From a virus, in IMG/VR virus record IMGVR_UViG_3300046734_000671, positions 1 through 64,000 of that record: a stretch of 64,000 bases of DNA, one strand, 5' to 3'. Under the pieces are notes generated by a model. It made no database searches, was not told the DNA's origin, and worked only from the letters and a program-made list of their open reading frames with translations. How positions within the stretch are numbered: the first letter of the stretch is position 1; each line of letters starts with the position of its first letter. Made by a program: the position numbers and the translations under genes. Shown here piece after piece: positions 1 to 27,130 of this stretch.

Positions 1-202
1 TATTGCTTCTTCATCACTACTCACAGAATGGGTTAGAGGAAAGTCCCTTGACGAAGCGGGAAAGATCAGCAATGTCCAAATTGCTCAAGAATTATCACTT
101 CCGCCAGTAAAAATACATTGTAGCGTATTAGCGGAAGATGCTATCAAAGCCGCCATCAAGAACTACAGGGGAAAGCATGATACAAGTAACACAGGCAGCT
201 AG
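1..202 (+). CDS. iscU: IscU-type iron-sulfur scaffold protein, C-terminal part (5' end outside window)
   Basis: Reading from base 2, about 66 codons remain up to a TAG at 200-202. They contain the IscU C-terminal signatures [18 protein letters not shown] and [20 protein letters not shown]. The cysteine in [11 protein letters not shown] is the last of the three conserved cluster-binding cysteines; the other two and the LPPVK chaperone-recognition site are a known arrangement in IscU, and LPPVK is visible here. IscU is the scaffold on which [2Fe-2S] and [4Fe-4S] clusters are built from IscS sulfur. The gene overlaps the start of iscA by 26 bases, which suggests translational coupling. The short tail after KNYRGKH appears to be phage-specific read-out into the iscA start. 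Only the N-terminal half is unseen, so completeness cannot be judged. Confidence 0.9.
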
Positions 203-497
203 TTCTTGGATACGAGAGCAGCTCTATCTACGTGGTAGAGGAAAGGGCATACGTTTGGGTATTGCTCCTGCAGGATGCACTGGATATAAGTATGTAATTG
301 AATTTGTAGATGAAGAAAACGAAGAAGATTACTATACAGATCAAAAGGGCGTAAGATTTTTTATAGACCCAAAAAGTCGACCCGCGTTATTAGACTCTGT
401 AGTTGAGTTTCGAACTGAAGGCCTCAACTCTGGATTAGACATTATAAATCCCAACACACGAGACAAATGTGGATGTGGTGAGAGCTTCAGTATATAG
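177..497 (+). CDS. iscA: IscA/HesB A-type iron-sulfur carrier protein
   Basis: This 106-residue protein has the usual length of the family. It carries the three invariant cysteines at 34 ([10 protein letters not shown]), 98 and 100 ([11 protein letters not shown]). A-type carriers receive clusters from the scaffold and hand them to target proteins. I chose ATG 177 because AGGGGA lies just upstream and the product then begins MIQVTQAA, as the family does; the upstream in-frame start at 138 would add 13 unrelated residues coming from the iscU frame. It overlaps the end of iscU and is followed 13 bases later by the lysozyme. The pair iscU-iscA without iscS suggests that the phage relies on host cysteine desulfurase. 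All family key residues are present, so activity is plausible. Confidence 0.92.
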
Positions 498-1596: not shown

Positions 1597-1751
1597 AAGA
1601 TAAAAGTTATAATCATCTAAAACTCGTAGCTTCTCGCTCTGGCCTATCAAAAGTGGACGATCAGTATTTAGAGTTAGAGAAGCAACAAGAAGAACTTGAA
1701 GAGCAAGCAAGATTAATTGCTGAACTGTATGGAGAACCGGACGAAGAATGA
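1593..1751 (+). CDS. Small acidic hypothetical protein (52 aa)
   Basis: The frame begins with an ATGA overlap on the gene before it and ends with an ATGA overlap on the gene after it, which is strong support for translation in a coupled cluster. The product begins MKDKSYNHLKLVASRSG and then has a heptad-like acidic helix rich in Glu, Gln and Leu (residues 24-46, LELEKQQEELEEQARLIAEL), so a short coiled coil is likely. No function is recognised. Confidence 0.7.
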   Translation: MKDKSYNHLKLVASRSGLSKVDDQYLELEKQQEELEEQARLIAELYGEPDEE

Positions 1752-2083
1752 AAAAACTAGGCTTTTGGGTGTATGACACCTACAATTTCTTTTTTAGTCT
1801 CAAAGCAAATCCTTTACGATTTATACCGAATGCGTTTACACAGTATATACTGATGTTTTATCTCTCGGTGATGTGGACTGTTGTGTTCACGCTTTGGACT
1901 GGATATAGTATTTATTTTGGTCTTGGAAGTGTTGGTGGGCACTTATTAGTAATTAGTGCATTTTTTATTACTGCTCTTACATTTCAAGATGCAGAAAAGA
2001 ATGGTCATTTGTGGGTACAGAGAGTTAAGCCCACCCCAGTAGAGAAAAGGAGAGGTGTGTGGAATTTAGAAAGCGAGGGTTAA
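1748..2083 (+). CDS. Two-helix membrane protein (possible holin)
   Basis: The 111-residue product has two hydrophobic segments, about residues 35-52 (MFYLSVMWTVVFTLW) and 62-80 (HLLVISAFFITALTF). Both ends are charged, and the C-terminal tail is basic (RVKPTPVEKRR). With two helices and both ends charged it resembles class II holins in layout, and the lysozyme lies about 0.8 kb upstream. There is no sequence signature for a holin, and it lies immediately before a cytochrome c lipoprotein, so a membrane partner for that protein is an alternative. It starts with an ATGA overlap and its last 25 bases overlap the next gene. Confidence 0.6.
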   Translation: MKKLGFWVYDTYNFFFSLKANPLRFIPNAFTQYILMFYLSVMWTVVFTLWTGYSIYFGLGSVGGHLLVISAFFITALTFQDAEKNGHLWVQRVKPTPVEKRRGVWNLESEG

Positions 2084-2478
2084 TTTTAGCATTAGGTATT
2101 GCTTTGGCAGGTTGTGGGCAGAATGACCCAGGTCTGGCAAAAACTATGGGCACCACAAAAGCACAGCGTGCTGCTATTGAAGATCGCATCAAACCCTTTA
2201 GTGTAGTAAATGTAATAGGCGGAACTGCTGTTGCTGCTGTTGCTGCATTGCCTGGCGAAGCAAAGTATGCTGCATGTGGAGCATGCCACGGTTCAAACGG
2301 GGGCGGGGGTGTAGGCCCTGCACTTGCTGGACAAACAGTCCAGTATATTGTTGGGAGGCTCAACCAATACAAAGCAGGTGAAAAAGTAGGTAATCAAAGC
2401 AATATGATGTGGCCTCAGGCGGCAGGACTATCTGATACTGATATTAATGATCTTGCGGAGTATATTGGAACATTATGA
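2059..2478 (+). CDS. c-type cytochrome lipoprotein
   Basis: The start is GTG 2059 with AGGAG just upstream. The 139-residue product begins with basic residues, a hydrophobic core and a lipobox (IALAGC, Cys19), so it should be exported and lipid-anchored on the periplasmic side. A heme-attachment motif CGACH is at residues 73-77. A cytochrome c fold follows: GVGPALAGQTVQYIVGRL, YKAGEK, a Met axial ligand candidate at 116/117 (SNMMWPQAAGL), and the C-terminal helix LSDTDINDLAEYIGTL. Class I cytochromes c of the c4/c553 kind carry one electron between membrane complexes. Heme attachment would need the host Ccm system. The gene sits inside a compact run of phage genes with overlaps at both ends, so it is a resident phage gene and not a host fragment. 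Confidence 0.85.
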   Translation: MEFRKRGLILALGIALAGCGQNDPGLAKTMGTTKAQRAAIEDRIKPFSVVNVIGGTAVAAVAALPGEAKYAACGACHGSNGGGGVGPALAGQTVQYIVGRLNQYKAGEKVGNQSNMMWPQAAGLSDTDINDLAEYIGTL

Positions 2479-2660
2479 AAAGTAGTACATATGAGATTGT
2501 AGAGGTATTCTATGCTGAAAATGAAAGAGTATATAGAGTAGTAGAAAAGAAAGCCGATGGAAAAATTCAAGATGTAGCACGACTTACTAGTAGAGAAAAA
2601 GCTCAATACTACATAGATGTACGTCAACAACAAACAGCACCGGAGCATAACCAATGGTAA
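2475..2660 (+). CDS. Small hypothetical protein (61 aa)
   Basis: An ATGA overlap with the cytochrome gene supports this frame. The product (MKSSTYEIVEVFYAENERVY at the start) alternates beta-type segments, then ends with SREKAQYYIDVRQQQ and a polar tail. It has no membrane segment, signal peptide or cysteine. Function is unknown. Confidence 0.65.
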   Translation: MKSSTYEIVEVFYAENERVYRVVEKKADGKIQDVARLTSREKAQYYIDVRQQQTAPEHNQW

Positions 2661-24466: not shown

Positions 24467-27130
24467 TTATCCTTGTAAAGCCGCTGTCGGCGCTGTGAAA
24501 TTACTTGTGTATCTTGCTAGACCTTTTGTAATACGAACATCGCTTTGATATCCATTAAAGACTTCCCCGCCTGTAGCACTTGCTCCAATCCTAAATAACT
24601 GAGAAGTATATGTTCTAGCACTTGTAGAGGAGCTGCCTGTTTGAGTGCCGTTCAAAAATAACTTGTGAGTGCCGCTTGCCCGCGTATAAGCCCAGTGATG
24701 CCAATTGTTTGCAGTGACTGCGCTTGACGCTCCTGTAATCAGAAATCCGCCGCTGTATATATAGAGCGCTCCAGCAGTACTGACCGCTACAGACCATCCG
24801 CCAGCATCAGTAAGACTACTCAGTCGGCCATCAACTACCGTGTATAATGCGGAGTTATTTGGTATCCAAAGCCAGCCCTCTATAGTAAAATCTTCAGTAC
24901 CAAAATTTCCTATATCTTGATCATCCGCTTCGATATAATCTCCAGTCCCATCAAAGTACATAGCAGAGCTTAAAAATTTATATTGAGTTGTAGATGATTT
25001 TGTATTTCCTACAAGTTTTACTTTCTTTGAACTTTGAGATTTGTCAATAATACCTGCATCTGTACTCTGTACAAGTAGTTTTGTATTTGTAATTGCTGTA
25101 AGTGGAGTAGTTGGAGGAGTAAAATTACTTGTATAAACTGCTGTGCCTTTCACAAAACGAAGATCTGCTAAAGTTCCTGCAAGTGTGCCGTTAGAGTTAT
25201 TCCATCGCATTATGTGTAAAGGATTTGTGCTATCAAAACCAGCATCAGCAGCATTAGTAACAGTAGCATCTGACTTACCATTTAGATAAATAGCCCACGC
25301 ATTTCCATTTCGGACTACTGCCCAATGAGTCCAAGTATTAAGTGCAATATCAGTTGCAGCAGTAATTATATATGCGCTTGCTGGAGACGAATAAAATTGC
25401 AATTTGCCAGAATTGATTTGAACAATACTTGAAAAATAAGTTTGTCCTACAAGAAAGTTTGCATTACCATATGCAGTGGGGTATACCCACCCTTCTATAG
25501 TAAAGTCAGAGGTTCCTAAATCAAAATCAGAGCTTGCTGCAACTGCCAAGTAATCTCCTGTACCATCAGAATGTAGAGAGCCTCCATGACTTGCTGCTGA
25601 ATATTCTTGGGCATCGTATGGAGAAATGGGTTCTATAGTTGGGTCACCCGCCACAGTTATAGCGTGACCGTCTGTAGAGCCATCAGCTATATAAGGTAAA
25701 TGACAAGTAAGTAACTTAGTATTTGTTACTGCTGTTAAAGGCTCTGTAGGTGCGGTAAACGCAGAAGTATATACAGCGGTGCCTTTTACAAATCTAACAT
25801 CTCTTATATAGCCATTTAAATTATTACCGTATTGATGTGACCCAATTCTAATTCTATTATTAGCATAATTAGTACTATTTGACGCACTATATTTTAAAGC
25901 CCCATCAATATATAAATATATAGTAGAGGCATCCCTAACAAGGGCTAAATGATACCACTTATTTAAATCAATAATATCGTGATTGGTACCACTTCCTACA
26001 TTTCCTGTTAACCAATCTGAGTCGACTATACCAATACTATCATTTGTGTGGTAATAAAAAATATTCATTACATTAGTTGAACCGCTCATAAGAGCAAGAA
26101 GAGTATACTGTGTATCTGTGTTAACTTTAAACCAGCATTCTAAAGTAAACTGTCCAGTACCGACTTGAAATGCTGAAGTATCTGTAGGAGTTTCTAAATA
26201 GTCCCCGGTACCATCAAAATAAGTAGAATAGCCACCATGTCGATAAGGACTAAATGTAGTTTGATGTGCATCTCCATTTGCTGTAATTGTATGGTTCGAA
26301 GTAGATTTATCGTCAAAAGAAGTATTTACTGCATTGTTTGCTCCTACTGAAGTGATAAGAGCTGTAGTATAATGACTATTTGGTACTGTAAATTGCAATG
26401 TAAATGAAGATGCTGCAGTTGCAATATTTACTCCATCACTTGCACGAAATGTAAGCGAGAAAGTTCCTGCGTAAGCTGTATTTGTTGATGGTGTAATCGT
26501 CCATACATTTGTACTTGCTCCTGTACCTTGAGCCACCGTTGCTATATTCCCCGAAGTATCGCTAGCAATACTGTACGTAATTGGTATTCCTTCCGGATCT
26601 GTAGCAACAATAGTTACAGTAGTTGCTGTACCATCAATTGCAAGATCATAGGTAGCATTTGCACCAGATATAGAAGGATTCGTATTTATAAGTGCAATTT
26701 TATACCATCCGCTACCATTGTAGAAGTATAAAGTATTTGTTGCAGTTACAAATGCTTGATCTCCTGCAGCAGGAGATGACAGGGCCAGAAGCGCAGTTAC
26801 ATTTGCTACAACTGTGGCACTTCCGTCTGCTCCAGCCGCTCCAGCCGCTCCAGCGGATCCTTGTTGTCCAACAACTTCTACCCATTGATTGGAAGAGCCA
26901 TCAGCATAGTATACAAACATACCTCCATCATCAGTATCATACCATAAATCGCCGTCTGAAGGACTAGAAGGAGCACTATCGCTTGTACTTACAGATGCAC
27001 CTCCACCGCTACCACTGGAACCTGCAGAACTTGTCCAGTATGCTTTTGTAGAATTGTAAGTATAAGTAATTCCATTTATAGTCACCGTATCTGCATTACT
27101 TGGACTATCTGGAAAATTATATAAAGCCAT
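24467..27130 (-). CDS. Tail fibre paralogue with three LamG-like domains (887 aa)
   Basis: The N-terminal unit (FPDSPSNADTVTINGITYTY) is shared with its neighbours. A carrier segment (PSSPSDGDLWYDTDDGGMF, about 50-90) and collagen-like GSAGAAGAAGADG follow. Next is a cadherin/Ig-like domain at about 150-250, then three concanavalin/LamG-like domains, each opening with a Y-x-x-x-FDGTGDYLE-type strand and FTLECWF or FTIEGWV (about 300-465, 500-685 and 725-885). LamG-like domains commonly bind glycans. The last about 75 bases are nearly identical to the end of the next gene, marking a duplication. Confidence 0.78.
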   Translation of the reverse strand: MALYNFPDSPSNADTVTINGITYTYNSTKAYWTSSAGSSGSGGGASVSTSDSAPSSPSDGDLWYDTDDGGMFVYYADGSSNQWVEVVGQQGSAGAAGAAGADGSATVVANVTALLALSSPAAGDQAFVTATNTLYFYNGSGWYKIALINTNPSISGANATYDLAIDGTATTVTIVATDPEGIPITYSIASDTSGNIATVAQGTGASTNVWTITPSTNTAYAGTFSLTFRASDGVNIATAASSFTLQFTVPNSHYTTALITSVGANNAVNTSFDDKSTSNHTITANGDAHQTTFSPYRHGGYSTYFDGTGDYLETPTDTSAFQVGTGQFTLECWFKVNTDTQYTLLALMSGSTNVMNIFYYHTNDSIGIVDSDWLTGNVGSGTNHDIIDLNKWYHLALVRDASTIYLYIDGALKYSASNSTNYANNRIRIGSHQYGNNLNGYIRDVRFVKGTAVYTSAFTAPTEPLTAVTNTKLLTCHLPYIADGSTDGHAITVAGDPTIEPISPYDAQEYSAASHGGSLHSDGTGDYLAVAASSDFDLGTSDFTIEGWVYPTAYGNANFLVGQTYFSSIVQINSGKLQFYSSPASAYIITAATDIALNTWTHWAVVRNGNAWAIYLNGKSDATVTNAADAGFDSTNPLHIMRWNNSNGTLAGTLADLRFVKGTAVYTSNFTPPTTPLTAITNTKLLVQSTDAGIIDKSQSSKKVKLVGNTKSSTTQYKFLSSAMYFDGTGDYIEADDQDIGNFGTEDFTIEGWLWIPNNSALYTVVDGRLSSLTDAGGWSVAVSTAGALYIYSGGFLITGASSAVTANNWHHWAYTRASGTHKLFLNGTQTGSSSTSARTYTSQLFRIGASATGGEVFNGYQSDVRITKGLARYTSNFTAPTAALQG

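Follow-up and report, generated by a model that had tools for sequence, protein, structure and literature searches.

A T5-like phage, represented by IMG/VR record IMGVR_UViG_3300046734_000671, encodes a lipoprotein class I c-type cytochrome that is probably part of a movable phage respiratory module. The module would combine the cytochrome with an undescribed membrane protein with two transmembrane helices (2TM) and, in many relatives, an alternative oxidase (AOX), and would tune quinol oxidation during infection. The trio of cytochrome c, AOX and the conserved 2TM protein is found repeatedly in both T5-like and T4-like marine phages, and these partner genes, not the cytochrome alone, are the main point of the locus; a first-pass annotation of the cytochrome had been made without them. 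The DNA analysed here (the window) comprises the first 64,000 bases of the 70,437-bp record, and the features discussed are the following.

2..202, + strand: C-terminal part of an iscU-like scaffold gene; the record begins inside the gene
177..497, + strand: A-type Fe-S carrier (IscA/HesB-like; Pfam Fe-S_biosyn, 7.3e-13)
1748..2083, + strand: undescribed two-TM membrane protein (2TM), 111 aa; overlaps the cytochrome start by 25 nt
2059..2478, + strand: lipoprotein class I c-type cytochrome, 139 aa, GTG start; assigned from Pfam, PDB, AF2 and dN/dS
2104..2115, + strand: lipobox LAGC, with Cys19 expected to be lipidated, then conserved G-x-N-D
2116..2250, + strand: linker of ~45 residues from lipid anchor to heme domain; low AF2 confidence except for a short helix at 34–43
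2275..2289, + strand: heme attachment motif CGACH, residues 73–77; Cys73, Cys76 and His77 invariant
2407..2412, + strand: invariant Met117-Trp118 (MW)
2475..2660, + strand: 61-aa protein with no assigned function, 3' of the cytochrome; ATGA overlap (4 nt) with the cytochrome stop

The phage and its cytochrome gene

The left arm of the window carries replication genes (primase, DnaB-like helicase, DNA polymerase, SbcCD, exonuclease and ribonucleotide reductase) and the right arm carries tail genes (tape measure and major tail protein). A split NAD-dependent DNA ligase and a D5-like regulator are also present, and the DNA polymerase is approximately 45% identical to Vibrio and Klebsiella phage enzymes, for example those of pVp-1 and Sugarland, which we take to be T5 kin. 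On these three grounds the phage is T5-like. Kinship with pelagiphages through ribonucleotide reductase matches was set aside as uninformative, given that the DNA polymerase gives the kinship of the phage. As a clue to the host, tRNA genes were searched for and none is present in the window.

Cytochrome homologues with 61–97% identity are carried by at least 14 further IMG/VR contigs, and the gene order of the window is repeated in the viral loci L016, L020, L021 and L009. The expectation of viral homologues in the same gene context was thus confirmed in many independent contigs, several with the same flanks. An assembly chimera, or host DNA misbinned as viral, would fit the ordinary chromosomal location of the nearest named cellular relatives, but this explanation can be dismissed almost entirely: the same phage flanks surround the gene in contigs assembled from other metagenomes, T5-like replication and tail genes lie in the window, and the host copies differ in leader and context. 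Chimeric assembly is therefore rejected. Pairwise dN/dS of the cytochrome is 0.08–0.27, with synonymous changes far outnumbering amino-acid changes between relatives, which indicates purifying selection on a real and maintained gene.

Four viral loci (L091, L093, L094 and L089) match the window at 80–98% on both sides and lack positions ~2090–2484, which correspond to the cytochrome gene; a second, smaller gap in the same comparison spans ~2660–2790. Between L021 and the window, the flanks are ~85–99% identical and the 3' half of the cytochrome ~65–70%. Near-identical phages thus either have the gene or cleanly lack it, and together with the drop in L021 this indicates a cassette subject to gain, loss and exchange at a site immediately 3' of the 2TM gene. 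The otherwise different phage cytochromes of L006, L009 and L012 have in common a variant N-terminal linker containing CSYDGNDCFLPIM, with two additional Cys, which suggests that recombination may also occur inside the cytochrome gene.

The cytochrome reading frame starts at GTG 2059, approximately 6 nt downstream of AGGAG, and its stop ends at 2478. The first-pass annotation had called the product a c-type cytochrome lipoprotein and had noted overlaps with both phage neighbours, and both observations hold. The product matches Pfam Cytochrom_C (E 1.7e-10) and monoheme c552/c554/c4 proteins in the PDB (E down to 4e-16). Confidence in the AF2 model is restricted to the heme domain (residues 66–139, block pLDDT 75–91), with pLDDT <50 at residues 6–31 and 45–61, and the best PDB matches of that domain in Foldseek are all monoheme cytochromes, the same ones as in the sequence search. 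Across 12 aligned phage homologues, Cys19, Gly20, Asn22 and Asp23 are invariant, as are Cys73, Cys76, His77 and Met117-Trp118; CxxCH and Met-Trp stay invariant in a wider 14-member alignment with bacterial and divergent phage relatives. Met116 and Met117 had both been put forward as heme ligands. Met117 is invariant in 14 diverse relatives and is likely the sixth ligand, whereas position 116 is often Leu or another residue and Met116 is rejected on that ground. With a single CxxCH, a C-terminal Met ligand and the cytochrome c fold, the protein is a class I c-type cytochrome, predicted to be loaded with heme, and its short leader, lipobox and Cys at +1 mark it as a predicted lipoprotein.

SoxCD has been reported in IMG/VR phages as a claimed phage-encoded periplasmic redox protein (PMC8190135). 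There, SoxD partners the SoxC enzyme and the two viral copies are without cytochrome motifs, whereas the present cytochrome has its motif intact, and soxC was not seen. Identity with SoxX or SoxD was rejected (SoxX 19.5 bits against a cut-off of 61), and no sox genes were seen in the loci read; identity with cbb3 subunit III was also rejected (ccoP 18.7 bits against a cut-off of 180). PHROGs gave weak chance matches only for the cytochrome, and INPHARED gave no match to it or to the CxGECY-type cytochrome described below. The gammaproteobacterial c552/c554 proteins (1cno, 2zzs and 8yts) share fold, CxxCH and Met ligand with the phage cytochrome, at 43–49% identity in structural alignments, but they are cellular and have neither the lipid anchor nor the 45-residue linker.

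A cell-surface role for the lipoprotein, for example in superinfection exclusion, with the heme fold as a relic, is highly unlikely. The T5 lipoprotein Llp acts in superinfection exclusion, and Gly at +2 after Cys19 would favour the outer membrane by the E. coli Lol rule, away from the inner-membrane oxidases; hence a T5-like phage with a lipoprotein that could be directed to the outer membrane would suit such a role. However, every heme ligand is conserved without exception in a gene under purifying selection, and a surface role does not account for why this gene is linked to AOX and to 2TM, which is found paired with cytochromes in bacteria.

The 2TM partner and linkage to an alternative oxidase

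The 2TM protein has an N-terminal helix and two helices of transmembrane length (29–51 and 55–85), with the motifs NPLRxIP, TM2 His65, DAEKNGHLW and WxLExE. The histidine in the second transmembrane helix is near-invariant. The protein gave no Pfam, NCBIfam, PDB-sequence or fold match. It has 153 viral relatives and is common also without the cytochrome. Loci with the lipoprotein cytochrome almost always contain the 2TM gene as well, including those otherwise almost unlike the window; the exception is L026, in which the match falls at the edge of the sequence examined.

Many 2TM loci encode an AOX (Pfam AOX, 1e-47), and the AOX diiron motifs LET, NERxHL, EEEA and DExxH are found in 100 of 115 viral rows (small variants allowed, duplicates included). 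After removal of duplicates there are 110 distinct genotypes, with all three genes in 12, 2TM and AOX in 17, cytochrome and AOX in 9, 2TM and cytochrome in 5, and a single gene in the others (2TM in 41, AOX in 21, cytochrome in 5). Among the 31 distinct cytochrome-bearing viral genotypes, 26 also have 2TM and/or AOX in the fetched stretch and 12 have all three; the loci were sampled through these same genes, partly redundantly, with at most 80 per search and many stretches short, and these co-occurrence frequencies are therefore not population estimates. The association of cytochrome, 2TM and AOX is not obligatory.

Counted over the distinct genotypes, 17 neighbour pairs place AOX immediately beside a cytochrome or 2TM gene; there are several gene arrangements among them, and two subfamilies of cytochrome are involved. 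Overlapping or near-contiguous 2TM-cytochrome-AOX operons contain a lipoprotein cytochrome in L017 and L024 and a divergent, TM-anchored CxGECY cytochrome in L228, those of L024 and L228 being gap-free, and the gene order in L215 is 2TM-AOX-cytochrome. As cytochrome-AOX neighbours, a carrier gene beside a diiron quinol oxidase is thus found in phage genomes of several lineages outside the window.

A search that started from AOX alone gave at least 233 viral relatives; the cytochrome family is present in 27/79 and the 2TM gene in 29/79 of the viral loci fetched via AOX. Many of the AOX loci look T4-like; the neighbours of AOX there are ribonucleotide reductase and glutaredoxin, clamp loader or SbcCD genes. 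The cytochrome of the T4-like phages differs in having a TM anchor and a CxGECYEEY motif. In a tree of 87 columns, weakly resolved and with many unresolved forks, most CxGECYEEY phage cytochromes group with bacterial CxGECY cytochromes and the type in the window lies near Halieaceae G102 and G110, so that on this short alignment the two phage types fall mostly on separate branches. Finding two cytochrome types in the same gene company argues for a functional link, at the weak resolution of this tree.

In T4-like phages a gene for a small protein with a single TM helix is found repeatedly next to AOX (L228 6622–6885, L215 6995–7327 and L274 5636–5929) and is a possible fourth cassette member. 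In the viral contig L251, genes for a cupredoxin, a ferredoxin, a CxGECY cytochrome and AOX lie close together.

Among 50,697 INPHARED records AOX is present in one, phage C48C1 (OQ984149.1), whose complete public genome lists the gene at 26279–26830 as a hypothetical protein. Five INPHARED records match 2TM; C48C1 is the closest, and its AOX and 2TM genes are 21 kb apart.

No AOX is present in the window's own record. In L016, whose cytochrome is 96% identical to that of the window, the homologue of the iscU-like gene is immediately preceded by AOX. Because the record starts inside this same gene, the AOX of the window phage is likely to lie just beyond the left contig end. Fe-S assembly genes (partial IscU-like and IscA/HesB-like, 2–497) open the record where a close relative has AOX nearby.

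Cellular relatives and likely hosts

Near full-length orthologues of the cytochrome occur in approximately 18 of 140 Halieaceae genomes (55–67% identical, homologous well beyond the heme domain). In Halieaceae (OM60/NOR5, Luminiphilus) this chromosomal orthologue lies between GST and comM genes, as seen in all four genomes read, with no adjacent 2TM gene. The nearest cellular orthologues have an apparent signal-peptidase-I leader (AFA-QTDEQ) and no lipobox, and the predicted lipobox is what distinguishes the phage version from them. AOX is present in 27 of the 140 genomes, 12 of which have the cytochrome orthologue (uncorrected for kinship), and the 2TM gene in 28. In seven Halieaceae (G009, G031, G032, G034, G115, G119 and G128) 2TM is next to or within ~2 kb of a cytochrome c gene, and in G009 the two overlap as in the window; the other Halieaceae 2TM genes stand apart. 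The 2TM gene is also present in 47 of 99 genomes of a family with 0.8–1.5 Mb genomes that we infer to be SAR86-like. Both 2TM and AOX are rare in Gammaproteobacteria at large (one 3/369, the other 9/369). Halieaceae and SAR86-like bacteria are the likely sources or hosts.

Two bacterial loci from this survey show further arrangements. In L290 (6277–7361; genome G423 of the family with small genomes) the AOX gene overlaps a pseudoazurin-like cupredoxin gene. In L291 (G485) 2TM and a c554-like cytochrome lie beside a MerR-type regulator (LitR/CarH-like by eye), a DCC-type protein and a photolyase-related gene, and light regulation of this pair is possible.

The bacterial pairs bear on what the unit is. 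It could consist of 2TM and cytochrome c only, as a membrane-docked shuttle to a proton-pumping host oxidase, with AOX a separate auxiliary gene in the same variable region. Bacteria such as G009, G031, G115 and G485 have 2TM next to a cytochrome c gene. Bacterial pairs of this kind occur with no AOX alongside, and several viral genotypes have the pair with no AOX in the stretch examined. We give this a small though real chance, as the 17 AOX neighbour pairs, in their several arrangements and with both cytochrome subfamilies, speak against it, as do the nine genotypes with cytochrome and AOX without 2TM.

A possible role in the respiration of infected cells

The closest parallel is the mobile petE (plastocyanin) and PTOX cassette of cyanophages, which is thought to stop electrons backing up in infected cells (PMC3037559). 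Both combine a gene for a one-electron carrier with a diiron quinol oxidase in a movable cassette of marine phages, and PTOX and AOX belong to one superfamily. Unlike in petE/PTOX, the carrier here is a cytochrome c, the oxidase is of the respiratory AOX type and a 2TM protein is added. The AOX query gave no cyanophage PTOX match in INPHARED. Viral AOX are 63–76% identical to gammaproteobacterial AOX, the nearest among the relatives tested, and no cyanophage record was found, which argues against a photosynthetic host with PTOX. Given the different oxidase type and likely hosts that are not cyanobacteria, the locus is not a member of the petE/PTOX cassette. The cytochrome-AOX cassette is best read as its counterpart in phages of heterotrophs, and may work in a similar way.

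In the module that we favour, host Sec/Lgt/Lsp would export and lipidate the single-heme cytochrome and the host cytochrome c maturation system would load its heme. The cytochrome would most likely shuttle periplasmic electrons from the quinol/bc1 side to a host terminal oxidase. Where present, AOX would pass electrons from quinol directly to oxygen without proton pumping, and the 2TM protein would dock or couple cytochrome and AOX to the membrane. As with cyanophage plastocyanin and PTOX, quinol would be oxidised, NAD+ regenerated and damaging back-pressure kept low during phage DNA and protein synthesis. Several points count against this reading: AOX needs no cytochrome c partner, Gly at +2 would favour a site away from the inner-membrane oxidases, the window record contains no AOX, the three genes are not always together, and 2TM gave no relative or fold match that would hint at its role. 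The linkage to AOX and 2TM nevertheless lends support to the first-pass suggestion that a membrane-anchored phage cytochrome c may maintain or redirect respiratory electron flow.

More tentatively, 2TM could be a new respiratory subunit that binds heme b or quinone through the TM2 histidine and joins cytochrome c (or a cupredoxin) and AOX in one phage quinol-oxidising complex. We regard this as unlikely; if true, such a complex would add a branch to respiration that neither cells nor viruses are known to have.

AOX is commonly tied to lower ROS formation, and the heme protein and AOX could instead serve stress protection by removing oxygen, NO or peroxide or limiting radicals, with no part in respiratory electron transfer. 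C48C1, which has AOX and 2TM, carries a peroxiredoxin gene two genes after its 2TM gene, in keeping with such a role. However, class I cytochromes with His/Met ligation carry electrons and do not act as peroxidases. The kind of carrier also differs between loci (a cytochrome, or the pseudoazurin-like protein beside AOX in G423), which makes stress protection distinctly improbable.

The main text of an ocean AMG survey names neither a cytochrome nor an alternative oxidase (PMC11360552), and PMC8115048 reports no electron carriers in its phages. No named prior case emerged from searches of plasmids and of the main texts of published papers. Steering of photosynthetic electron flow is known for cyanophages, and no description of respiration steering as a gene system in phages of heterotrophic marine bacteria was found in the main texts searched. 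Our findings suggest a role for a currently unnamed 2TM gene family and make the way in which phages of heterotrophs manage host respiration a directly testable question. They also suggest that phages may bring part of a respiratory chain with them to control the energy supply of the infected cell.
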